NCBI GenBank assembly: GCA_003265895.1
Contig: QFBS01000001.1
Span: 124,001 to 188,000, forward strand
DNA: 64,000 nucleotides
DNA from: Candidatus Marinamargulisbacteria bacterium SCGC AG-410-N11
Lineage (GTDB): Bacteria; Margulisbacteria; Marinamargulisbacteria; GCA-2716485; AG-410-N11
Reading direction: 5' to 3'
The notes beneath the pieces are model-generated. The model ran no database searches, was not told the origin of the DNA, and saw nothing but the letters and a program-made list of their open reading frames with translations. Below, piece after piece: positions 6,131 through 50,801 of this stretch. How positions within the stretch are numbered: the stretch's first letter is position 1; every line of letters begins with the position of its first letter. Made by a program: the position numbers and the translations under genes.

Positions 6131-6838
6131 ATGGAATTTGTTAAGATTTGTGCGGTTTTAGGAAGTGGTTTTGCAATGGGCTTAGGGGCTATAGGGTCTG
6201 CTGTTGGAGAAGGTATGATTGCGATGAAGGCGGTTCAGTCACTAGGTCGTCAACCATCAGCTTCATCAAAAATAGTTAGGATAATGGTTATTTCTCAAGC
6301 AGTTACTGAAACAGCAGCTGTATTTGCTCTTGTTATTTCTTTATTATTAATGTTTAAATCTGGAGATTTTTCATATATCAAAGGATTTACATTCTTAGCT
6401 GCTGGGATTGCTGTGGGTTTTGGTTCCATAGGGGCAGGATTAGGTGCCGGTTTGCCCGGAAGCTCTGCAATGGAAGGTATTGGTAAGCAGCCAGAGAATT
6501 CGGATGTTTTAACAATCCAAATGATTATTGGCCAGGCAGTAACTCAGACATCAACAATTTTTGCTTTAACAGTAGCATTAATTTTGATAATGTTAGATCC
6601 AGAGCCGAGTAATCTTAAGGTGTTTGCTATATTAGGGGCAGGGTTTGCAATGGGATTTGGAGCCATTGGACCTGGTATTGGTGATGGATTAGTTGCAAAA
6701 CATGCTAATAAAGCAGTAGCAAGAAATCCAAAACATATGGGATTATTAACAAGAACTATGATTATTGGACAAGCCATTACAGAGACTACAGATATCTATG
6801 CAATGGTGGTATCATTAATCTTAATTTTTGTAGTATAA
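6131..6838 (+). CDS. Triple-hairpin ATP synthase c subunit (three fused c domains, middle one lacking the carboxylate)
   Basis: 235 residues made of three consecutive c-subunit hairpins, each with a glycine-rich helix 1, a polar loop (GRQP, GKQP, ARNP) and a helix 2. Hairpin 1 is about residues 1-78, hairpin 2 about 81-158 and hairpin 3 about 161-235. Helix 2 carries the ion-binding glutamate in hairpins 1 (E60) and 3 (E218), but hairpin 2 has glutamine, Q139 (CAG at 6545-6547). The helix-1 acidic residue follows the same pattern: E27, A106, D185. F-type bacteria normally have only the single-hairpin form. Here the triple form sits 9 bases after atpB and 31 before a standard atpE, so a mixed rotor ring is the natural inference. 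Known parallels are duplicated or triplicated V/A-type K subunits and the two-hairpin c1 of Acetobacterium woodii. No frameshift seen. Confidence 0.93.
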   Translation: MEFVKICAVLGSGFAMGLGAIGSAVGEGMIAMKAVQSLGRQPSASSKIVRIMVISQAVTETAAVFALVISLLLMFKSGDFSYIKGFTFLAAGIAVGFGSIGAGLGAGLPGSSAMEGIGKQPENSDVLTIQMIIGQAVTQTSTIFALTVALILIMLDPEPSNLKVFAILGAGFAMGFGAIGPGIGDGLVAKHANKAVARNPKHMGLLTRTMIIGQAITETTDIYAMVVSLILIFVV

Positions 6839-27121: not shown

Positions 27122-27211
27122 CTGATATTATATTAACTATACTTTCAGGGGTAAATATTAAAAACGTTTTTATCTATTGAGTTAAAGAAGTTTTGGAGTG
27201 TGAAATTTAAA

Positions 27212-28789
27212 ATGGGAAACTATATTGATTTAGAAAATAAAGTAAGCTTATCAAATTCATGTATTTGGAAATTACAACAAGATTATTTTAAAAAATTAGG
27301 GAAGTCAGCTTGGGAGGGACAGGTTCCTTTTTATGTGACAAGTAATACAAAATTTAGCTTTTCTATAGCAAATATAGTTTTTAATTATTTGCTAGAGTTA
27401 ATTAGTAAAAATAAAGTTAATATTGATGAACCATTATATATATTAGAATTTGGTAGCGGATTAGCAAAATTTGGTTTTCATTTTATGACAAAACTTGCAG
27501 AATTAAAAGATACACATAATTTAAGTCATATTCAAACACCTTATATTTTAACAGATTTACCAGAAGAAAATATGCGTTTTTGGGAGAGCAATAAGCAACT
27601 AAAACCATTTTTAGATAATAAACAGTGCGATTTTGCAAAGATAAATATTGAAAACTTTTCAAATATTGAAACGGTTAAACATAATTTTATTATTGATAAT
27701 AATACTATTAAAAACCCTTTAATTGTTCTATGTAATTATTTAATAGATTCAGTTCCTCATGATTGCTTTAAGATTTCAAACAATCAAATAAATGAGGTTT
27801 TAGTATCTACTCAAATAAAAGAAGATTACAAAAATAAAACAATTGATCATCTTAATCAATTAAAATTTGAATTTTCATTTAAGGAAATAAATAACGATCA
27901 TTATGAAGATCCCATATTAAATGATATTTTAAATAATTATAAAGAGACTATCTATGATAGCCATATTTTGATACCAACTTCAGGTATTAAAATTTTAAAA
28001 ACTATTTTAAATAAATTTTCAAAAAATACATTATTAGTTGTGAGTGATAAAGGCTGGTCAAACAAAAAATTTATCGACCAACAAGGAGAACCACACATAG
28101 CTTTTCATGGAAGTTTCTCGTTAATGGTAAACTTTGATACTCTAAAACAATATACTGAAAGTATTGGAGGAAGCTCTGTCATAACCAGTACGGGATTAAG
28201 TGGTTTGAAGACCGGTTTATTCCATTTATCAGAAAATTTGAATTTGTTTTCAAAAACTATTACATCATTTAATTCCTACTTAAATGCAACAACAGATGAT
28301 TTTTTAACAATTAAAAATAGCATGTTAGCTAATATAGACTCGTTAAGTGCGAATGTAATTTTAAGTCTTTTAAAATATTCAGAGTGGGATGAAAAAATCT
28401 TTTCTTCTGTTTCAAAACGCTTAGAAAAAGTGCTTCCAAATGAACCTATGAATATTAAACTAGAGTTTATTAATTATTTACCAAATATTGAAAAAAATAT
28501 TTTTGAAGTTAATCTAAATAACAGTATAACCTATTTAGATTTAGGAAACATTTATTATTCATTAGCGGAGTATAAAAAAGCAAAAGAAATGTTTAATTAT
28601 TATAACGAACGAAATAGTACTGATTGGGCATCTTTTCATAATTTAGGATTAGCACTTTTTTATTTAAGAGAATATGATCAAGCAATGTCTACATTTAAAA
28701 CAGCTCTTAATTTAAAGGCTGACTCAGAAATTTCTCAGGAATGGGTCGATTATATTAAAACAGAATATTTAGAAGTTAATTCAAAATAA
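27212..28789 (+). CDS. SAM-dependent methyltransferase-like protein with C-terminal TPR repeats
   Basis: About 525 residues from the ATG at 27212; a GTG at 27200 would add four residues but is too close to the GGAG at 27195. The N-terminal half has a methyltransferase-like core: YILEFGSGLAKFGFHF (near 80-95) for SAM binding, YILTDLPEENMRFW for the acidic strand and LIVLCNYLIDSVPHDCF later, an arrangement reminiscent of the MidA/NDUFAF7 fold. Residues about 445-525 contain two TPR motifs (YLDLGNIYYSLAEYKKAKEMF, FHNLGLALFYLREYDQAMSTF). The target is unknown. It precedes rseP by 12 bases and probably heads that operon. Confidence 0.72.
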   Translation: MGNYIDLENKVSLSNSCIWKLQQDYFKKLGKSAWEGQVPFYVTSNTKFSFSIANIVFNYLLELISKNKVNIDEPLYILEFGSGLAKFGFHFMTKLAELKDTHNLSHIQTPYILTDLPEENMRFWESNKQLKPFLDNKQCDFAKINIENFSNIETVKHNFIIDNNTIKNPLIVLCNYLIDSVPHDCFKISNNQINEVLVSTQIKEDYKNKTIDHLNQLKFEFSFKEINNDHYEDPILNDILNNYKETIYDSHILIPTSGIKILKTILNKFSKNTLLVVSDKGWSNKKFIDQQGEPHIAFHGSFSLMVNFDTLKQYTESIGGSSVITSTGLSGLKTGLFHLSENLNLFSKTITSFNSYLNATTDDFLTIKNSMLANIDSLSANVILSLLKYSEWDEKIFSSVSKRLEKVLPNEPMNIKLEFINYLPNIEKNIFEVNLNNSITYLDLGNIYYSLAEYKKAKEMFNYYNERNSTDWASFHNLGLALFYLREYDQAMSTFKTALNLKADSEISQEWVDYIKTEYLEVNSK

Positions 28790-31463: not shown

Positions 31464-32942
31464 ATGTTATCATTTATTAGAAATAATGTAGCTTTAATTG
31501 GTTGGATTATAATTATTTTTTTCAGTGGCACTTTATTTACAACAAGTGTTTTTTTTGGGAAAAATTACAATGAAAATAAAGAAAGTAAGAATATTTCTGA
31601 ACTATTAACGCAGTCTGCAGCAACTTATGGAAATAAAGTATTTATTAGTAATCAACAATTTAGATCAATTGTAAATTATTACGATAATCAAAGAAATAAA
31701 ATGCATCCTCAAAATATCGAGTTAGCTAAATATCAACAATTTTTAGCTCTATCAAATCAAGCTATTATCCAATCATTTGCTCGAGAATCAGATTATAAAA
31801 TTAATCAAAAAGAAATTGATGTAGAATTAGATCAAATTCTTATTAGCCAAAATTTAAAAGACAAGAAAGAACTTAAATCAAAATTAAAAGAAAACAATAT
31901 CCAATATAAGCAATTTATAAATTCAATAAAAAATTCAATAAAACAAGATAAGTTTATTGAAGATTTGCAATCTAACATACATGTGTCTAATAGTGATGTT
32001 GAAAATAAATATACTGAATTAAAAATAAGTCATATTCTATTAGAAGTTAATGATTCTAAGTTAGCACCATCGCAAAATATTTTAGCAAATGAGGTTTATA
32101 AAAAAGTAAGAAAAGGCGGGAACTTTTCTAAATTAGCCATTAAATATTCTGATGATCCAAGTGTGAAAAATAATAAAGGAAATTTAGGTTGGGTAAGTTA
32201 TGGTCAGACAGTGCCAGACTTTCAAGATGTAGCATATACATTAGAAGAAGATGAAGTATCAAAACCCTTTTTAACAGAGTTTGGTTATCACATTGTTAAA
32301 TTAAATAAAAAACGCTCAAAAGTAAAACCAAAAGATTTTAATTTAGAAAATGAAAAAGAAACTATGTTAAAAGAAAAGAAAGAGTTAGCTATTCAAGAGT
32401 TTTTAACTAAATTTGTTAAAAGTAATAAATTAGAAATATTTGATGATGAATTAAACGCAATTCATGCTAAAGTAAATCGGAATTTAGAATTAGCATTAGG
32501 TTTTTATCAAAAAATAATTTCTAAAAACCCAAATGACCCATTACCAAACTTTTATTTAGCTCAAATATTCTTATTTCAGAAAAAGAATGATTTAGCATTG
32601 CAAGAATTAGAAAAAGGAGATATTAAGGCCGAATTATCTCCAAATTTAGATTTTAAGGAAATACATTATGAATTATATAAAATTTATAAAAATAAGAAAT
32701 TAAAAGCCAACGCAATCAATCAATTAGATAAAATATATGCATTAACTGATAATGATATTAGTACATTAAAGGATTTAAAAGAAAAATACGATGATATGAA
32801 AAAAGATGATATGAAAAAAGAAATTGAAAAAAAGATAGTTGAAATTGAAACAAAATTAAAAGAAGAAAAAAAGAAAAAAGAAGTTAGTAACGCTGAAGAA
32901 GCTAAAAATAAAGAATTAATTTCAAAAAAAGTTGATGATTAA
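31464..32942 (+). CDS. Periplasmic parvulin peptidyl-prolyl isomerase with C-terminal TPR/coiled coil
   Basis: 492 residues. N-terminal signal anchor (about 10-30), a SurA-N-like helical chaperone region (about 45-185), then a parvulin domain at about 190-285 (ISHILLEVN, FSKLAIKYSDDPSVKNNKGNLGWVS, FGYHIVKL). After it come TPR-like helices (about 330-430) and a Lys/Glu-rich tail. It probably folds or chaperones outer-membrane or secreted proteins. Shine-Dalgarno GAAGGAG precedes the ATG. It follows ftsX by 27 bases. The tail holds a tandem 15-base duplication (32790-32819). Confidence 0.88.
   Translation: MLSFIRNNVALIGWIIIIFFSGTLFTTSVFFGKNYNENKESKNISELLTQSAATYGNKVFISNQQFRSIVNYYDNQRNKMHPQNIELAKYQQFLALSNQAIIQSFARESDYKINQKEIDVELDQILISQNLKDKKELKSKLKENNIQYKQFINSIKNSIKQDKFIEDLQSNIHVSNSDVENKYTELKISHILLEVNDSKLAPSQNILANEVYKKVRKGGNFSKLAIKYSDDPSVKNNKGNLGWVSYGQTVPDFQDVAYTLEEDEVSKPFLTEFGYHIVKLNKKRSKVKPKDFNLENEKETMLKEKKELAIQEFLTKFVKSNKLEIFDDELNAIHAKVNRNLELALGFYQKIISKNPNDPLPNFYLAQIFLFQKKNDLALQELEKGDIKAELSPNLDFKEIHYELYKIYKNKKLKANAINQLDKIYALTDNDISTLKDLKEKYDDMKKDDMKKEIEKKIVEIETKLKEEKKKKEVSNAEEAKNKELISKKVDD
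32790..32819 (+). repeat. Tandem 15-base in-frame repeat in the parvulin gene
   Basis: GATGATATGAAAAAA occurs twice back to back and encodes DDMKK twice. It is a small in-frame tandem duplication in a charged, likely disordered tail. Because it is a multiple of three, gain or loss of copies would keep the frame. Confidence 0.85.
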
Positions 32943-35900
32943 AATTTAATTGCAGTCCAACTTGTAATAGTTTGACTATCAGAAGACGAAATTTGATTAT
33001 CACTATTTAGTCCGGTACCCCAAACAGAACCATCTTGTTTTAGGATCAGGCTATGGTATTTACCTGTTGCAATTAATGTTGCATTATCAAATACTTTTAC
33101 CCAAGTAGTTTGATTAATAGTATTATTAGTACCTAGTTGCCCAGAATGGTTTTGACCAAATCCCCAAACTGAGCCATCTGATTTTATAGCTAGTGCATGA
33201 TTTGATCCAGCCGAAAAGTCGATAACATTATCTAATACCTTGGTCCAACTTAAAATCTTTTCAGAACCTAGCGGGTTACCTACAATCCATAGCGAGTTAT
33301 CTTTTAAAGCTAAACAAAAATATTTCCCTGAATCAATTCGTTGAACATCATTTAATACATTAGTCCATGTTTCTTGACGTTCTAAATCTTGAGTTCCTAG
33401 TTGACCATTTAAATTATCGCCAACCACCCATAAAGAGCCATCTTTTTTAAGAGCATAAGAATGCAAATGACCAAGTTTTACAGATTGAATATTTTCAAAC
33501 GATTTAGTCCAAATATCTTTATTTTCAGTAGAATTTAAACCTAATTGAAAGTTACTGTTTTGACCAATTGCATATAAATTACCGTTTTGATCAACGTACA
33601 TACTATGATAAAAACTACTATCAATCGTTTGAATATTAGATTTAACATATTTCCAATTAGGTTTCATATTATCAATAGCCGAGTTTACGTTATCATCTGT
33701 ATTACTCGGCGTGGAGTAACCAATTTGATCAAAGCGATTTTCACCACTTCCCCAAGCAATATTATTATTATCTATTAAATAAGTATGAAAATCAGAAGTC
33801 GTTATAAATTTAATATCATTACTGATTAATTGCCATTGCTTATCAACAATTAAATCACCAAGCTGTTTACTAGAAACTGTTCCGGAACCCCATAATTCTT
33901 GATTAGATTTTATGGTAAAGCTATTATTATAATCTGCAAAAATAGAGTTGATATAATTTGTGTAAAAATGAATAGGTTTTGATAGATTACCTGATGTATC
34001 AACCGTATAAATAGCATAATAATAGCCACTTTGATAATCTAGATTGTTATCTTCATAAATTAAATCATTTGAAATTAAATCTTTTGAATTAAGAATAATA
34101 TTAGATGGAATATTACCTGGAATATCTTTTGTTTTAGTAATAAGTGAATGGCTGAAATCACTATCTGAAGGATGATTCCAGTAAAGTGTTATTTTATCAT
34201 TATTAAAAATACCATGAAACATTGTTGGATTTTTTGGAGGCGTTTTATCTTCTGATTTGAAGGTATTAGTTAAAACCTTTTCCGAAATTAAATCATTTTT
34301 ATCTTTCGAATATAACATATAGTGATAGTTAGAGCCATTTAACTCAATAGTATCTACAAATGATTCATCAAGGCCCTCGTAAATAATAGTACCAGAAGGA
34401 TGAATAGAAAATATATCATTTATTTTTCGGCTAATAATAACAGAATTAAGGTCATTATCAGAGGGTAATGACCAACTCAAAATTAATTTATTATTATCTG
34501 TAACAGATACATTAAATATATTGGGTAATGAAGGTGGAATTTCATCTGTAGTAATAAAATTAGCTGTTGATATTTTAGAAAATATATTTTCATTTAAATC
34601 TTTTGTAAACAGTGAATAGTAATAAGTAGATCCATCAAAGAGAATTGTTGTATCGGTAAAGCTATCTTGATTTGTACTCGCAATTTGTATTCCATCAGTT
34701 ATACTATTAATTGGAAACTTTGAACGATTTATAAAGTTTTGAAAGGAATCAATCGTTGGATTTTTCCAAGTTAATTTAATGGAATTATCTAATTTAGATA
34801 ATTTGAAATTAGTAAGGGGCTCTATTATTTTTAAACTAGATTTAATATTGATTTCTATAGAAGCTTGGTTAGATTCATTGCCATTAATATCTCTTACAAC
34901 CAAGGTATAATTAAACGTAGATCCATTCTTTTCATTTTGGGAAACTTGAGTAATCAATTTGCCACTACTAATCGTCGTTAATTCGTTACTAGAATGATCA
35001 TTTTTTATAATTAATATATCTTTAATATCATCGTCCAATGGGTTAATCCAATTAACAGTTAATGTGCTTTCTGTTTCGCTAATCGGTGTTATCGAATATG
35101 TAATATTAGATACAGGATTTGGAGGTATACGATCTAAAGAAGTTACTTCATGATAAATTGGAGAAGAGTAGGCTAAATCGTTATTATAAGCGGTTAATTC
35201 ATATTCATATGTAATTTGAGAGTTACTGATGTTAGAGTCTTCATATTGTGATGGAGATAAAAGCCCATCAAAAATTGTAACAAAAGTATCATTATTCTGT
35301 TCTTTATTTTTTCGTTTAATTAAAATACCTTTAAGGTTTGTATCATTTGGGTTATTCCATTTAAGTATTATATTATCTTTATTTATTGAAGATTCAATAT
35401 TTGAAACAGAGTTTATTGACGATAAAGGTTGTTGTATTAAAAAGTTAATAGATGCTACTTCAGATTTATTATTAGCTAAGTCTTTCGAATAAATATAATA
35501 GTAGTAATGATTGTTGGTTGGAGCTAAGTCCTTAAAGCTTGATAGTGATCCATTATATATTGCTAAACTCTCATCAAAGGTACTCAAGGGTTGCAACGCT
35601 TTAAATAATAGTACCTTAGAAAAGTCATCAACAGGGTTATTCCATGTTAGTTCAATTGAACTTAATTTTAAATTATAGCTAAACAATGACGGCTTTTTTG
35701 GTGGATAAGTATCCGTTATTATTACTTTTTGTGAATATTTATCAAGTATTTTGGAATCATTATCAAGCATAAATAAGGTATAAATATAAGAAGAAAATAA
35801 CGTTACGTTTAAATCTTTAGCCATTAAAAGAGAATGATTGATTTTTTGACCATCTACTAGTGTATTGGGAGTAACTAACTTGTTTTCTAGCGACCTTCTT

Positions 35901-36178
35901 AATTCATAAGTAACTTTTTCGGAAGTTGGATTATCCCAACTAATAGTAGCAAACCCTTTATCTGATGAAATTGTAAATTCTTTAATATTTTGGGAAAAAT
36001 TAGAGTTCCCATTTGTTTTATTATCAGGTTGATCACTGGATGTATTTGTATTAGATACGTTGGAGCCTTGTTCTGAATCTGTTTTTCCAAGTTTAGAAGC
36101 TTTACCACAGCCAGTAATAAGAAAAATAACAAGAGATAAAGTAGTAATAAAAGCAAATAATTGATTATTAACTCTCAT
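32939..36178 (-). CDS. Large lipoprotein with FN3-like repeats and C-terminal RCC1-type propeller
   Basis: 1079 residues. Signal peptide with lipobox LITGC, lipidated cysteine C24, then a low-complexity Ser/Asn linker. Seven FN3-like modules follow, each marked by a W-x-x-P (ISWDNP, LTWNNP, LKWNNP, VNWINP, LTWKNP, LSWSLP, LYWNHP). From about residue 750 on there are several RCC1-type repeats of about 50 residues built on HSLxLKxDGSVWGxGxNxxxQLG, likely a partial seven-blade propeller. Probably a cell-surface adhesion or polymer-binding protein; function not assignable. Its stop shares TTAA with the convergent parvulin gene. Its size and repeats set it apart from the housekeeping neighbours. 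Confidence 0.88.
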   Translation of the reverse strand: MRVNNQLFAFITTLSLVIFLITGCGKASKLGKTDSEQGSNVSNTNTSSDQPDNKTNGNSNFSQNIKEFTISSDKGFATISWDNPTSEKVTYELRRSLENKLVTPNTLVDGQKINHSLLMAKDLNVTLFSSYIYTLFMLDNDSKILDKYSQKVIITDTYPPKKPSLFSYNLKLSSIELTWNNPVDDFSKVLLFKALQPLSTFDESLAIYNGSLSSFKDLAPTNNHYYYYIYSKDLANNKSEVASINFLIQQPLSSINSVSNIESSINKDNIILKWNNPNDTNLKGILIKRKNKEQNNDTFVTIFDGLLSPSQYEDSNISNSQITYEYELTAYNNDLAYSSPIYHEVTSLDRIPPNPVSNITYSITPISETESTLTVNWINPLDDDIKDILIIKNDHSSNELTTISSGKLITQVSQNEKNGSTFNYTLVVRDINGNESNQASIEINIKSSLKIIEPLTNFKLSKLDNSIKLTWKNPTIDSFQNFINRSKFPINSITDGIQIASTNQDSFTDTTILFDGSTYYYSLFTKDLNENIFSKISTANFITTDEIPPSLPNIFNVSVTDNNKLILSWSLPSDNDLNSVIISRKINDIFSIHPSGTIIYEGLDESFVDTIELNGSNYHYMLYSKDKNDLISEKVLTNTFKSEDKTPPKNPTMFHGIFNNDKITLYWNHPSDSDFSHSLITKTKDIPGNIPSNIILNSKDLISNDLIYEDNNLDYQSGYYYAIYTVDTSGNLSKPIHFYTNYINSIFADYNNSFTIKSNQELWGSGTVSSKQLGDLIVDKQWQLISNDIKFITTSDFHTYLIDNNNIAWGSGENRFDQIGYSTPSNTDDNVNSAIDNMKPNWKYVKSNIQTIDSSFYHSMYVDQNGNLYAIGQNSNFQLGLNSTENKDIWTKSFENIQSVKLGHLHSYALKKDGSLWVVGDNLNGQLGTQDLERQETWTNVLNDVQRIDSGKYFCLALKDNSLWIVGNPLGSEKILSWTKVLDNVIDFSAGSNHALAIKSDGSVWGFGQNHSGQLGTNNTINQTTWVKVFDNATLIATGKYHSLILKQDGSVWGTGLNSDNQISSSDSQTITSWTAIKF

Positions 36179-47091: not shown

Positions 47092-48552
47092 ATGGTTAGG
47101 GTAAGATTTGCTCCATCTCCAACAGGGAATTTGCATATTGGGACACTTAGAACAGCATTATTTAATTGGTTGTTTGCAAAGGCTAATAAAGGAGTCTTTG
47201 TTTTACGAATAGAAGATACTGATTTAGAGCGATCAAGGTCTGAGTATGAAACAAATATTTTACAGGGATTAAAATGGTTTGGCATCACCATTGATGAGGG
47301 GCCTAACGCTGGCGGATTATTAGGGCCTTATCGTCAATCCGAGAGAATTAAAGATGGAACATATACCCAATATGCAATGCAATTAATAAAAGAGAAAAAA
47401 GCCTATTTTTGTTTTTGCACTGATGAAGAGTTAAATAAAGAAAGAGAATTTGCAAAAAGTAAAAATGTTCCTTATGTATATTCACGGAAAGCACTTAAGT
47501 TGACTCAAAAAGAAGTCGAGCAAAAATTAGCAGATAAGCAACCGTATACAATACGTTTTAAAATGCCCGATAATGAAGAAATTAAGTTTAATGATCAAAT
47601 TAGAGGTGAGATTTCGTTTAAAAGTGAATTAATATCAGATTTTGTAATTATCAAATCAGATGGTAGCCCATCGTATAATTTTGCAGCAGTAATTGATGAT
47701 ATGTTGATGGAAATTACTCATATTATTAGAGGAGAAGATCATATCTCAAATACTCCTAGACAAATTGCAATTTATAATAGTTTGGGTAAGAGTCGACCAG
47801 AATTTGCGCATATGCCAATGATATTAGGACCTGATAGATCTAAATTGTCAAAAAGACACGGAGCTACAAGTATTACAGACTATAGAGATACAGGCTTACT
47901 AAATCAAGCTTGTTTTAATTATTTATCGTTGTTAGGGTGGTCGCCAGAAGATAATCAAGAGTTTTTTACAAGAGAAGAGTTAGCTGAAAAGTTTAAAATT
48001 AGTCGCATTGGTAAAAGTAACGCTATTTTTGATATTAAGAAACTTCATTGGATGAATGGACAATATATTAGAAAGTTATCCCCAGGAGAATTAAAGGATA
48101 GCGTATATCCATTTATTAGCGATAAGCATAAGGAACAACTAAACAAATATGATCTAAATATTCAAGAAAGTTTAATTTATTCAGTAAAAGATAACTTAGT
48201 AACTCTTCAAGATATCAATGACTACATTGCCGTTTATTTTGAAACTGATGAAAAGTATATGAGTAATTTAGAAACGTTTGATAAAGAAAAATTGCAAAAT
48301 GATAAAGCCGTTATTGAAAGTTTTATTAACAATATTGAACCGTTAAATAATAATTTAAAAGTTGCAGATATAGATCAGGCATTGAATAAGGTTATGGCGG
48401 TTACTGGAAATGGGAAAGGAAAAGTTTATAAACCTATAAGAATTGCAACAAGTGCTCAAAATTCAGGTCCTCATATTACAGATTTATTAAGTATATTTGG
48501 AAAAGAGAAGTTAGAAAAGCGACTTACCAACTTTTTAGATTACATAAGATAA
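47092..48552 (+). CDS. gltX: Glutamyl-tRNA synthetase
   Basis: 486 residues. HIGH-type motif PTGNLHIGTLRTALFNWLF (residues 10-28) and KMSKS-type motif DRSKLSKRHGATSI (near 240-253). The zinc-binding subdomain is reduced, with CFC in its place. The ending has PIRIATSAQNSGPHITDLLSIFGK. It charges tRNA-Glu; whether it also charges tRNA-Gln cannot be told from the sequence, and gatCAB is not in the window. Shine-Dalgarno AAAGGAAG before the ATG. It starts a plus-strand run with nnrD and a kinase-like gene. Confidence 0.97.
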   Translation: MVRVRFAPSPTGNLHIGTLRTALFNWLFAKANKGVFVLRIEDTDLERSRSEYETNILQGLKWFGITIDEGPNAGGLLGPYRQSERIKDGTYTQYAMQLIKEKKAYFCFCTDEELNKEREFAKSKNVPYVYSRKALKLTQKEVEQKLADKQPYTIRFKMPDNEEIKFNDQIRGEISFKSELISDFVIIKSDGSPSYNFAAVIDDMLMEITHIIRGEDHISNTPRQIAIYNSLGKSRPEFAHMPMILGPDRSKLSKRHGATSITDYRDTGLLNQACFNYLSLLGWSPEDNQEFFTREELAEKFKISRIGKSNAIFDIKKLHWMNGQYIRKLSPGELKDSVYPFISDKHKEQLNKYDLNIQESLIYSVKDNLVTLQDINDYIAVYFETDEKYMSNLETFDKEKLQNDKAVIESFINNIEPLNNNLKVADIDQALNKVMAVTGNGKGKVYKPIRIATSAQNSGPHITDLLSIFGKEKLEKRLTNFLDYIR

Positions 48553-48554
48553 GA

Positions 48555-49445
48555 ATGGCTCTGAGTACTTATAATATTGATAAACACAACTTAATTCCAA
48601 ATCGTAATAATCTTACCCATAAAGGACGTTGCGGAAAATTAGCTATTTTAGCAGGGTCTTTGTCAATGATTGGCGCCGCTATCTTAGCTGCAAAGGCAGC
48701 ATATCGATCAGGTGTTGGAATCGTTTATTTATTTACTATAGATACGGCAGTCCCTATGTTAAATATGATGTATCCGGAGGTTGTCGTTTTTTCTTTAAAG
48801 TCAAAAAATGGTTTTGTTTCTGATATAGCTCTAGATGAAATATTAAGCAAATTAAACACTTTAAATATTAATGCTTTAGTGATTGGCCCAGGATTAGGTA
48901 TAAATCAAGAGGTTAAAAGTCTAGTAACACAGTTGTTGACAAAGATAGAAAAAAAAATACCGATAATTATTGATGCAGATGGATTAAAAGTTCTTAATAT
49001 TAACGATGTTGTTAACTGTTCAAATATAATTTTAACGCCTCATCCTAAAGAGTTTGATATATTATTTAAAACAAACGTAGCGAAAGTAAAAAATTATGAT
49101 GAAGATAGATTAAATATTATAAAAAGTATAGTGAAAAATTTGAATTGTGTCATTATTTTAAAAGGGTTTCATACGTTAGTTGCAAATAATCTATATTGTT
49201 ATCAAAATAGAACAGGGAATAGTGGTATGGCGACAGCCGGTTCAGGCGATGTTTTAAGTGGTGTTCTCGGGAGCTTTGTCGCACAAAGAAATGATCTATA
49301 TCATAATGCAGTATCATCAGTTTATATTCATGGCTTAGCCGGAGATGCGAGCTATCAAGAAAAAGGGATCGGTCTTATTGCGTCAGATATAGTAGACTCT
49401 TTACCAAAAGCTATAAAAAATATAAATAATCAATCAGTATTATGA
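48555..49445 (+). CDS. nnrD: ADP/ATP-dependent NAD(P)H-hydrate dehydratase
   Basis: 296 residues, ribokinase-like fold. Motifs: HKGRCGKLAILAGS and GAAILAAKAAYRSGVG, then LVIGPGLG, IIIDADGLKVLN, ILTPHPKEFDIL and GNSGMATAGSGDVLSGVLG. This is the C-terminal half of the usual bifunctional Nnr; the N-terminal epimerase (YjeF-N) is absent, so any epimerase must be encoded elsewhere. It repairs damaged NAD(P)H. It starts 2 bases after gltX and overlaps the next gene by 4 bases. Confidence 0.93.
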   Translation: MALSTYNIDKHNLIPNRNNLTHKGRCGKLAILAGSLSMIGAAILAAKAAYRSGVGIVYLFTIDTAVPMLNMMYPEVVVFSLKSKNGFVSDIALDEILSKLNTLNINALVIGPGLGINQEVKSLVTQLLTKIEKKIPIIIDADGLKVLNINDVVNCSNIILTPHPKEFDILFKTNVAKVKNYDEDRLNIIKSIVKNLNCVIILKGFHTLVANNLYCYQNRTGNSGMATAGSGDVLSGVLGSFVAQRNDLYHNAVSSVYIHGLAGDASYQEKGIGLIASDIVDSLPKAIKNINNQSVL

Positions 49446-50494
49446 TGAGTTTTTCTAAAAATATTGAAGAAATAAATAAGATTGATAATAAAGATGCTAT
49501 TGTTAATTTTTATCGTAGTCATCAATGGCCGATAAATAAAGATCTAATTTTTTTAGAATTTAAATATATTAAAAAGCTAATTAATAATACGTTAGAAAAG
49601 AGTAAAGAATTAGCCTTGCCGAATTTGGGGTTTGACCCTTTATCGGATCTAGATTTAATATCATTTTTAACTAATCCAAAGCAGTTTTCTTTAAAATTAA
49701 ATAAAATTAAAGGAAAAGGTATTTTTTATGGTTTAGATCATGTTAGTCTAAGACAAAACTTACTAAACAGACTACCTATTCAACTTAAAAATAGAATAAT
49801 ATATCAAAAATTAAAATTTAATAATTTAGATGAAAAAATAGTTCAGTTATCAAATATCCAGCATATAAAAAGTTGTGAAGATATAGGAATGGGGCATTCC
49901 GTGTATAGAGTAATAGGAAAAAAAATGAGTTTTGTAGTGAAAAGAGTCGATCATATAAACCAAGAATTTTATAATAAAATTTTAAGCATTTTAGAGATGC
50001 CTTTTCATAATGTTTTTACAGTAAATACTAATCATGGGCGGTGGGAGGTTTCTGATAATTTAGGAGATATAACTCTAACCAAGTTTTGTTTGGAGAGTAA
50101 TGAACTGAGTCCAGCTATAGTTAAGCAGTTAGCTCGTCATGCTTGTTTAGGAGATGTATTTGGACGAGGAGATCGTCATTCAGAGAATTATATGGTTAAA
50201 GATAATGTTATATATTCTATTGATAATGCGTTTTTATTTTATAAAAATAATAATCAATGGGTCGAGCGATATATACAAGGCTGTCAGTCTGAGATTTCGA
50301 TTGTTTGCAATTTGTTTAATGAAATAAACTGTTTTAAAGAAAATTTAAATATTTTTTTAGAAGAATATAAAGTTCAATATCAAAGAATAAAGCAACGACA
50401 ATCTATGATAGTCGAATGGATGAAGTGTTGGTTTGAAAATAGTATCGAGCGTGAAAATAATATTCGTTACATAAAAAAAACACCTACTAGATAA
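49442..50494 (+). CDS. PI3/4-kinase-like protein (atypical kinase)
   Basis: 350 residues. The N-terminal 140 residues are helical and of unknown type. From about 145 on a kinase fold is visible: glycine-rich GMGHSVYRVIG (149-159), a candidate ATP lysine in SFVVKRVDH (K167), then the catalytic loop FGRGDRHSENYMV with D244, H246 and N249, and the metal site IYSIDNAFLF (D261). GDRHxxN followed by an I-D-x-x-F strand is the signature of phosphatidylinositol 3/4-kinase-like enzymes. The substrate could be lipid or protein. It overlaps nnrD; a start at 49445 is equally possible. The frame ends in KKTPTR next to an A8 run, and another frame continues, so the true protein may be longer. Confidence 0.72.
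   Translation: MMSFSKNIEEINKIDNKDAIVNFYRSHQWPINKDLIFLEFKYIKKLINNTLEKSKELALPNLGFDPLSDLDLISFLTNPKQFSLKLNKIKGKGIFYGLDHVSLRQNLLNRLPIQLKNRIIYQKLKFNNLDEKIVQLSNIQHIKSCEDIGMGHSVYRVIGKKMSFVVKRVDHINQEFYNKILSILEMPFHNVFTVNTNHGRWEVSDNLGDITLTKFCLESNELSPAIVKQLARHACLGDVFGRGDRHSENYMVKDNVIYSIDNAFLFYKNNNQWVERYIQGCQSEISIVCNLFNEINCFKENLNIFLEEYKVQYQRIKQRQSMIVEWMKCWFENSIERENNIRYIKKTPTR
50473..50480 (+). other. A8 run at the end of the kinase-like ORF, candidate slippage site
   Basis: Eight adenines just before the stop of the kinase-like gene. The +1 frame opens at 50475 (after a TAA at 50472-50474) and runs without a stop to 50801. Omitting one A in the run would join the two frames into a protein of about 455 residues. 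It may be transcriptional slippage, programmed frameshifting, a true mutation or an assembly error. Confidence 0.4.
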
Positions 50495-50543
50495 TAAATT
50501 TGTAGATCGACAACATAATATTTATGTAAAGTCACTAAAGGTA

Positions 50544-50801
50544 ATGATTGAACGAAATGCCTATAAAATAAAACTAGAAGATATTGTGGCAAGTAACCCA
50601 AGTATATTAAAAAATAGTTTATTAAATATGTATTACTTAGCAGGTAAAAACCGATTAACAAGCTTTTTTCTGTTGGACTATTTTGATAGACTTGAGTTAC
50701 TGAATATTCTTGATAAAAACTTTAAAAACAAACAAAAGCATAGCAAATTAAATGAAAAAGTTACCCTTTTTCAAAACGAAATTGCAAAAATAAGTTATTA
50801 A
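50544..50801 (+). CDS. Small hypothetical ORF, possibly the shifted C-terminus of the kinase-like protein
   Basis: 85 residues from the ATG at 50544, with no useful ribosome site (AAAGG is only two bases away). The reading frame is open upstream to 50475, overlapping the kinase-like gene in a different frame. The residues (IKLEDIVASNPSILKNSLLNMYYLAGKNRLTSFFLL) are helical, with Lys/Asn/Leu composition like the rest of the genome, so it looks coded. No family recognised. It ends 1 base before the purC stop on the opposite strand. Confidence 0.5.
   Translation: MIERNAYKIKLEDIVASNPSILKNSLLNMYYLAGKNRLTSFFLLDYFDRLELLNILDKNFKNKQKHSKLNEKVTLFQNEIAKISY

Follow-up and report, generated by a model that had tools for sequence, protein, structure and literature searches.

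A kinase family with a predicted PI3K/PIKK fold, inherited alongside gltX and nnrD in Candidatus Marinamargulisbacteria

Kinases of the PI3K type are listed as eukaryote-specific in a survey of the microbial kinome (PMC1821047), and the phosphatidylinositol kinases of Legionella and Rickettsia are effectors directed at the host (PMC9758233, PMC7298712). For the LanM enzyme CylM, the catalytic set consists of K274, D347, H349, N352 and D364 (PMC4550811), an arrangement that is the same in the kinase family described here. Translation is slowed by HipA kinases, which modify GltX by phosphorylation of a conserved serine, Ser239 in the E. coli enzyme (PMC8262856, PMC9758233). Candidatus Marinamargulisbacteria are little-known aquatic bacteria in which, as described below, an enzyme with the predicted shape of animal and fungal signalling kinases such as PI3K and TOR is inherited together with the gene for charging tRNA-Glu. 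The family was unreported in the excerpts covered by a limited literature search, where the texts on Marinamargulisbacteria and kinases concerned metabolic kinases.

The DNA analyzed, hereafter the window, is a stretch of 64,000 nucleotides from Candidatus Marinamargulisbacteria bacterium SCGC AG-410-N11. An open reading frame on its + strand (49442-50494, 350 aa) codes for the motifs GRGDRHSENY and IYSIDNAF, which a first-pass annotation had read as the catalytic loop and metal site of a PI3/4-kinase-like enzyme. The features of the locus are as follows.

47092..48552, + strand: gltX, which we take from its sequence to encode glutamyl-tRNA synthetase; it opens the conserved string gltX-(nnrD)-kinase (family 1, in 16/20 loci)
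48555..49445, + strand: nnrD, ADP-dependent NAD(P)H-hydrate dehydratase (PF01256 E 2.6e-57, TIGR00196 E 7.7e-67; family 3, in 13/20 loci)
49442..50494, + strand: predicted PI3K-fold kinase, N-terminal 350 aa, every catalytic residue included (Pfam, conservation, AlphaFold2, VIA)
49724..49768, + strand: family motif with consensus LYGxxHxxxRRxLxN at residues 95-109, ahead of the N-lobe strands, with R104 and N109 invariant (alignment)
49880..49906, + strand: glycine-rich putative ATP loop (residues 147-155, DIGMGHSVY), flanked by the predicted strands 144-147 and 155-158 (alignment, AlphaFold2)
49940..49942, + strand: K167, putative ATP lysine, invariant in 18/18 and part of the predicted strand 163-168 (alignment, AlphaFold2)
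50162..50191, + strand: catalytic loop GRGDRHSENY, residues 241-250, with D244, H246 and N249 invariant (alignment)
50222..50224, + strand: D261, putative metal aspartate, 12 residues past N249 (alignment)
50473..50480, + strand: A8 run, site of a reading-frame change in the kinase gene (frame comparison with relatives)
50475..50801, + strand: continuation of the gene in another frame, coding for the conserved C-terminal helices (NMYYLAGKNRLTSFFLLD; blastp to relatives best E 6e-13; family profile positions 307-389, E 3.2e-17)

The window protein scores below the curated cut-off of PF00454 (PI3_PI4_kinase; 18.8 bits, E 0.0017, cut-off 27.1; Pfam), and a single-sequence search against PDB chains gave no match at E<=10, so that the motif reading needed a test at the level of the family. 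In an alignment of 18 members (A1, from which L033, truncated by a contig end, and L039, with a frame change between N249 and D261, were left out), K167, D244, R245, H246, N249 and D261 are invariant throughout, and hence the kinase motifs are not a chance resemblance. The full set of invariant columns comprises R104, N109, D147, G149, K167, A234, D238, D244, R245, H246, N249, Y250, D261, W273, Y277, E284 and Y309, the spacing between N249 and D261 is 12 residues in 17 of the 18 members and 13 in one, and the family form of the ATP loop, DIGMGxSVY, lies ahead of the lysine strand. By sequence, the family can be aligned to Vps34 and Mec1 over the catalytic loop and the metal aspartate, and no segment but this catalytic one aligns to PI3K/PIKK. 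Searched against PDB sequences, the profile of A1 found Vps34 as its best match (E 5.6e-4), and all 37 matches of profile A3 at E<=0.05 were PI3K or ATM. Both motifs, GRGDRHSENY at residues 241-250 and IYSIDNAF behind it, thus fit the reading proposed for them, being invariant in 18/18 and aligned to Vps34 and Mec1, and K167, proposed as the ATP lysine, is likewise invariant and falls into a predicted strand. A GDDLRQD motif and DFG are features of PI3/4-kinases; neither a GDDLRQD-type motif after the lysine nor DFG occurs in the motif table of the 18 members. NCBIfam gave one weak, unrelated match for the window kinase, and matches to CesA, ATG17, Med31 and 6-pyr-pter were discarded as weak.

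The AlphaFold2 model of the window protein (15 sequences, pLDDT 83) is a bilobal kinase, and that of a full-length relative of 439 aa (L044) reached a pLDDT of 91.5. For both models alike, the best 50 rows listed by VIA-align were all PI3K, PI4K or mTOR. The window model superimposed on Vps34 (2x6j) with Z 14.1 and an rmsd of 3.9 over 235 residues, on PI4K-III-beta (6gl3) with Z 14.0 and 3.5 over 230 residues, and on mTOR (9ed4) with Z 13.6 and 3.8 over 229 residues; for the L044 relative, PI4K-III-beta (6gl3) gave Z 15.9 with an rmsd of 3.7 over 250 residues. Foldseek placed PI3K, Vps34 and TOR on ranks 1-44 for full-length L044 (best E 3.3e-7). For the truncated window model it returned RIOK2 and APH first, with APH(3') among the first matches, LicM2 at rank 30 and no PI3K among the best 50 matches listed. 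Giant-virus PI3-kinases were the best among the matches listed against viral models (E 7e-7), again a PI3K fold. HipA was absent among the structural matches listed by VIA-align and Foldseek, and CylM among those listed by VIA-align. The first-pass annotation had named a bilobal fold and D244, N249 and D261 as active-site residues: the predicted fold is bilobal and nearest to PI3K/PI4K/mTOR, and the three residues, invariant in 18/18, are placed in the putative active site together with K167 by sequence alignment, conservation and DSSP rather than by measured distances. It is very probable that the family consists of catalytically competent kinases of the PI3K/PIKK fold. Since its scores lie under the PF00454 cut-off, it is filed as a new family that shares this fold and not as a PI3/4-kinase, and no place among the lipid kinases proper is claimed for it.

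Vps34, PI4K-III-beta and the class I PI3Ks (PF00454) share with the family the bilobal fold, the DRHxxN loop and the metal aspartate. The family differs from them in its low identity (9-16% in the rows listed), a PF00454 score short of the cut-off, the lack of a GDDLRQD-like motif, a metal D that is not followed by FG and an acidic activation loop, and its 380-460 aa leave no room for the C2 and helical domains of PI3Ks. The PIKKs (mTOR, Mec1/ATR, ATM) are alike in fold, as in the match to mTOR 9ed4, and the catalytic segment aligns with that of Mec1 (VDLDCLF versus IDVSFLF, E 8e-4), but the family, at this length, has no HEAT/FAT/FATC architecture. With HipA and HipT the family has the D-x-H-x-x-N arrangement in common, and the target of HipA, GltX, is the product of the gene linked to the kinase here (PMC8262856); there is, however, no detectable sequence relation (hhalign E 0.39 to K-12 HipA), no HipA family is among those listed for the 18 members, and a toxin-antitoxin module there stands against class-wide chromosomal inheritance here. 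The effector kinases LepB, LegA5, MavQ, OpiA and Risk1 show that a PI3/PI4-kinase-type active site exists in bacteria (PMC7298712, PMC9758233), but they are set apart, by their descriptions and not by sequence comparison, from the native operon and class-wide vertical inheritance found here.

The end of the gene at position 50494, as first annotated, is not borne out. Intact relatives are about 380-460 aa long and continue for some 80-100 residues past the end of the window frame, with a conserved motif, MYYLADxDRxSxFFLxE, in this C-terminal extension. The corresponding part of the window lies out of frame behind the A8 run (50475-50801, of which the listed frame 50544-50801 is a part), and in the family profile search the window kinase appears as two separate matches, one per half, with all catalytic residues in the first and the conserved C-terminal helices in the second. 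By comparison with these relatives, the frame 49442-50494 covers no more than the initial four fifths of the kinase gene, which extends past 50494. The A8 run is one of 38 runs of A or T of at least 8 nt in the window, and the frame change possibly reflects an assembly or amplification error, a true mutation or transcriptional slippage. Due to this frame change, the kinase product of the window genome may be truncated or depend on slippage; no second copy was seen in this genome, which is listed as 56% complete. A split kinase was also observed in a second member of the class (G023, L039 8150-9400), in which the break lies between N249 and D261 and has no long homopolymer.

When 95 related genomes were searched with the protein, 20 had a match, all of them in the class of the window, Candidatus Marinamargulisbacteria. 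The profile search covered 74 genomes of the phylum at E<=10 and recovered the same 20, that is 20/27 genomes of the class and 0/47 outside it; among class genomes at least 90% complete the kinase is present in 5/6. Four of the seven class genomes lacking a match (G006, G009, G020, G022) also lack a match for gltX, and in G002 gltX is cut at a contig end. Since G008 and G012 possess gltX but have a kinase match neither behind it nor at any other place in the genome, the kinase is not essential to the class. Beyond the phylum, 309 genomes yielded three matches at E<=0.01. The match in G323 was dropped, being a 38-aa open frame with an internal stop, and that in G074 (L088, E 0.0036) lies inside a 1191-aa frame. 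The third, in G099, is by sequence a convincing distant relative from another phylum, the only one among the 309 genomes (494 aa, hhalign E 4.9e-19 over 303 columns).

L084 7300-8784, - strand: G099 relative, directly upstream of trpF-trpB-trpA (gene names from sequence)

No relative of the kinase was found by tblastn in plasmids and phages or among 140 pattern matches in viral contigs, PADLOC gave no match, and PHROGs gave nothing for the window protein and three weak, unnamed matches for L044. For PF00454 itself, 9 of the 383 genomes sampled have a match over the cut-off, none of them from Marinamargulisbacteria; hence such domains are uncommon, yet not unique, in bacteria. The initial description of these kinases as uncommon in free-living bacteria and better known as effectors stands as to rarity and as to the known bacterial cases, but a free-living habit is not assured, given that one of the Marinamargulisbacteria, Candidatus Ruthmannia eludens, lives as a symbiont inside the cells of a placozoan (PMC6784892).

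The kinase gene begins inside the stop codon of nnrD, with an overlap of 4 nt (ATGA). Its codon use ranks 24th among the 37 genes of the window, its GC3 (0.19) equals the mean of the 36 others (0.19), and composition and codon use agree with the neighboring genes, so that the overlap and native codon use noted in the first-pass annotation are both confirmed; the housekeeping context noted there extends across the class. According to clustering of open reading frames, the next same-strand gene upstream of the kinase is nnrD (13 loci) or gltX (7 loci) in 20/20 loci, and nnrD is missing beside the kinase in 7/20. The upstream gap ranges from -131 to +10 nt in 19/20 loci, in which the overlaps are over-counted by taking the first possible start codon, and is 862 nt in the exception, L021. 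Since nnrD without a visible gltX lies upstream in 4/20 loci (L025, L033, L035, L039), the tie is not to gltX alone. Distances between kinases correlate with those for gltX (r 0.911, 16 loci, 0/2000 permutations) and with those for acnA (0.842, 13 loci), and less with those for nnrD (0.610, 11 loci). In three congeneric pairs, dN/dS was 0.08, 0.10 and 0.09 for the kinase and 0.13, 0.08 and 0.07 for gltX. The constant gene order, co-evolution with gltX and low dN/dS indicate that the kinase gene is native and not mobile, is under purifying selection and is inherited vertically across the class. Being native, vertically inherited and intact in its active site, the family provides a point of comparison in bacteria for the PI3K/PIKK fold.

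From the family, predicted fold, invariant residues, gene order and selection computed here, we infer the phosphorylation activity and its target. The gene product would be a soluble kinase of the PI3K/PI4K/PIKK fold that is competent for catalysis, belonging to an old family inherited vertically within Marinamargulisbacteria and made, as overlap and shared strand suggest, from the gltX-nnrD transcript. By analogy with PI3K and CylM, Mg-ATP would be bound between the lobes via the DIGMGxSVY loop, K167, N249 and D261, and D244 and H246 of the DRHxxN loop would transfer the phosphate. The substrate would most likely be a bacterial cytosolic protein or metabolite and not phosphatidylinositol, with the co-encoded GltX as first candidate. 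As a whole, a PI3K/PIKK-fold cytosolic kinase of a bacterial target is the explanation that we favor with moderate confidence; for its part, a cytosolic substrate other than inositol compounds is fairly probable. No membrane segment was found in the kinase (highest 19-residue Kyte-Doolittle mean 1.39). Phosphoinositide kinases carry a basic activation loop for inositol lipid headgroups. The loop of the 18 members is not basic (net charge -4 to +1, mean -2.1), and inositol-1-phosphate synthase (PF01658) occurs in only 1/27 class genomes, G008 (L090), which lacks the kinase, and in 0/20 kinase-bearing genomes, a count from incomplete genomes that is compatible with imported inositol. For both reasons, a phosphoinositide substrate is unlikely.

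The choice of GltX as candidate stems from gene position and a functional parallel with HipA, and not from sequence kinship; that GltX itself is the substrate is improbable, although it may serve as a starting point. The motif KLSKR is present in 16/16 GltX proteins of kinase loci. As this loop is general to GltX, its presence is no pointer to the kinase. Should GltX nevertheless be the target, the kinase would act as a standing regulator that does the job of HipA toxins with a TOR-like fold. The more far-reaching idea, that a kinase of PI3K/PIKK descent phosphorylates the GltX of its own operon, ties translation to supply and has been kept for the age of the whole class, near Cyanobacteria, is quite improbable; if true, the family would be a bacterial outgroup to the eukaryotic PI3K/PIKK kinases. 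As the kinase is small and expressible, its substrate can be searched for directly, starting with the GltX and NnrD encoded beside it.

Among other explanations, a small-molecule kinase of cofactor or amino-acid metabolism, similar to APH or choline-kinase-like enzymes and acting with NnrD or the glutamate/glutamyl-tRNA pool, fares best. It would suit the constant neighborhood of metabolic genes, the position of the sole convincing relative outside the phylum next to trpF-trpB-trpA, the acidic, compact activation loop and the APH(3') matches of the window model; yet the fuller model, L044, comes closest to PI3K/PIKK, enzymes known to act on lipids and proteins, and no metabolic domain is fused to the kinase, and we regard this explanation as rather unlikely. 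An exported phosphoinositide kinase acting on host lipids, as Legionella LepB, LegA5 and MavQ or Rickettsia Risk1 do, is very unlikely: the PI3K/PI4K-like fold and catalytic residues would fit it, as would the intracellular life of Candidatus Ruthmannia eludens in the same class (PMC6784892), but the conserved, often overlapping position behind nnrD or gltX, the vertical inheritance across the class and the non-basic activation loop argue against it, and the class-wide operon favors a cytosolic role. Divergent kinase folds are known to be reused for other transfers. For the present family, such reuse (AMPylation as in SelO, glutamylation as in SidJ) or a role as pseudokinase scaffold is highly improbable, since the canonical kinase residues are kept in 18/18 members, even though glutamylation is conceivable for a kinase linked to a glutamate gene.

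The LanM dehydratase domain (CylM, LicM2; DUF4135) resembles the family in its lipid-kinase-like fold and in a DxHxxN motif followed by D after 12 residues, the spacing of Asn352 and Asp364 in CylM (PMC4550811). Profile matches are weak: DUF4135 matched 9/18 members (best E 1e-4), and hhalign to three LanM dehydratase halves gave E 8.8e-4 over 111 columns spanning the ATP lysine, DxHxxN and D. A LanM-like peptide kinase or dehydratase devoid of a cyclase is nonetheless very unlikely, since all 10/18 members scanned singly stay under the DUF4135 cut-off of 29 (best 22.0 bits, for the protein that also gave the E of 1e-4), the family has no cyclase, LANC_like occurs in 0/27 class genomes, which makes a lanthipeptide role unlikely, no LanC domain is among the families listed for the 18 members, and family grouping of the 20 loci gave no noticeable precursor or transporter cluster. 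As a separate observation, a member of the phylum outside the class (G049, L113) has a frame of 999 aa that encodes a LanM-type protein with full DUF4135.

Three further genes of the window deserve mention. At 6131-6838 on the + strand, an otherwise ordinary-looking atp operon contains an ATP synthase subunit c of 235 aa in which three c-subunit hairpins are fused into one chain (three PF00137 matches, E 6e-44). The gene at 27200-28789 (+ strand) encodes a Methyltransf_28 domain fused to a C-terminal TPR, and that at 32939-36178 (- strand) a 1079-aa protein whose lipoprotein-like N-terminus is followed by unusual, eukaryote-like RCC1 repeats (PF25390 E 2.7e-46).
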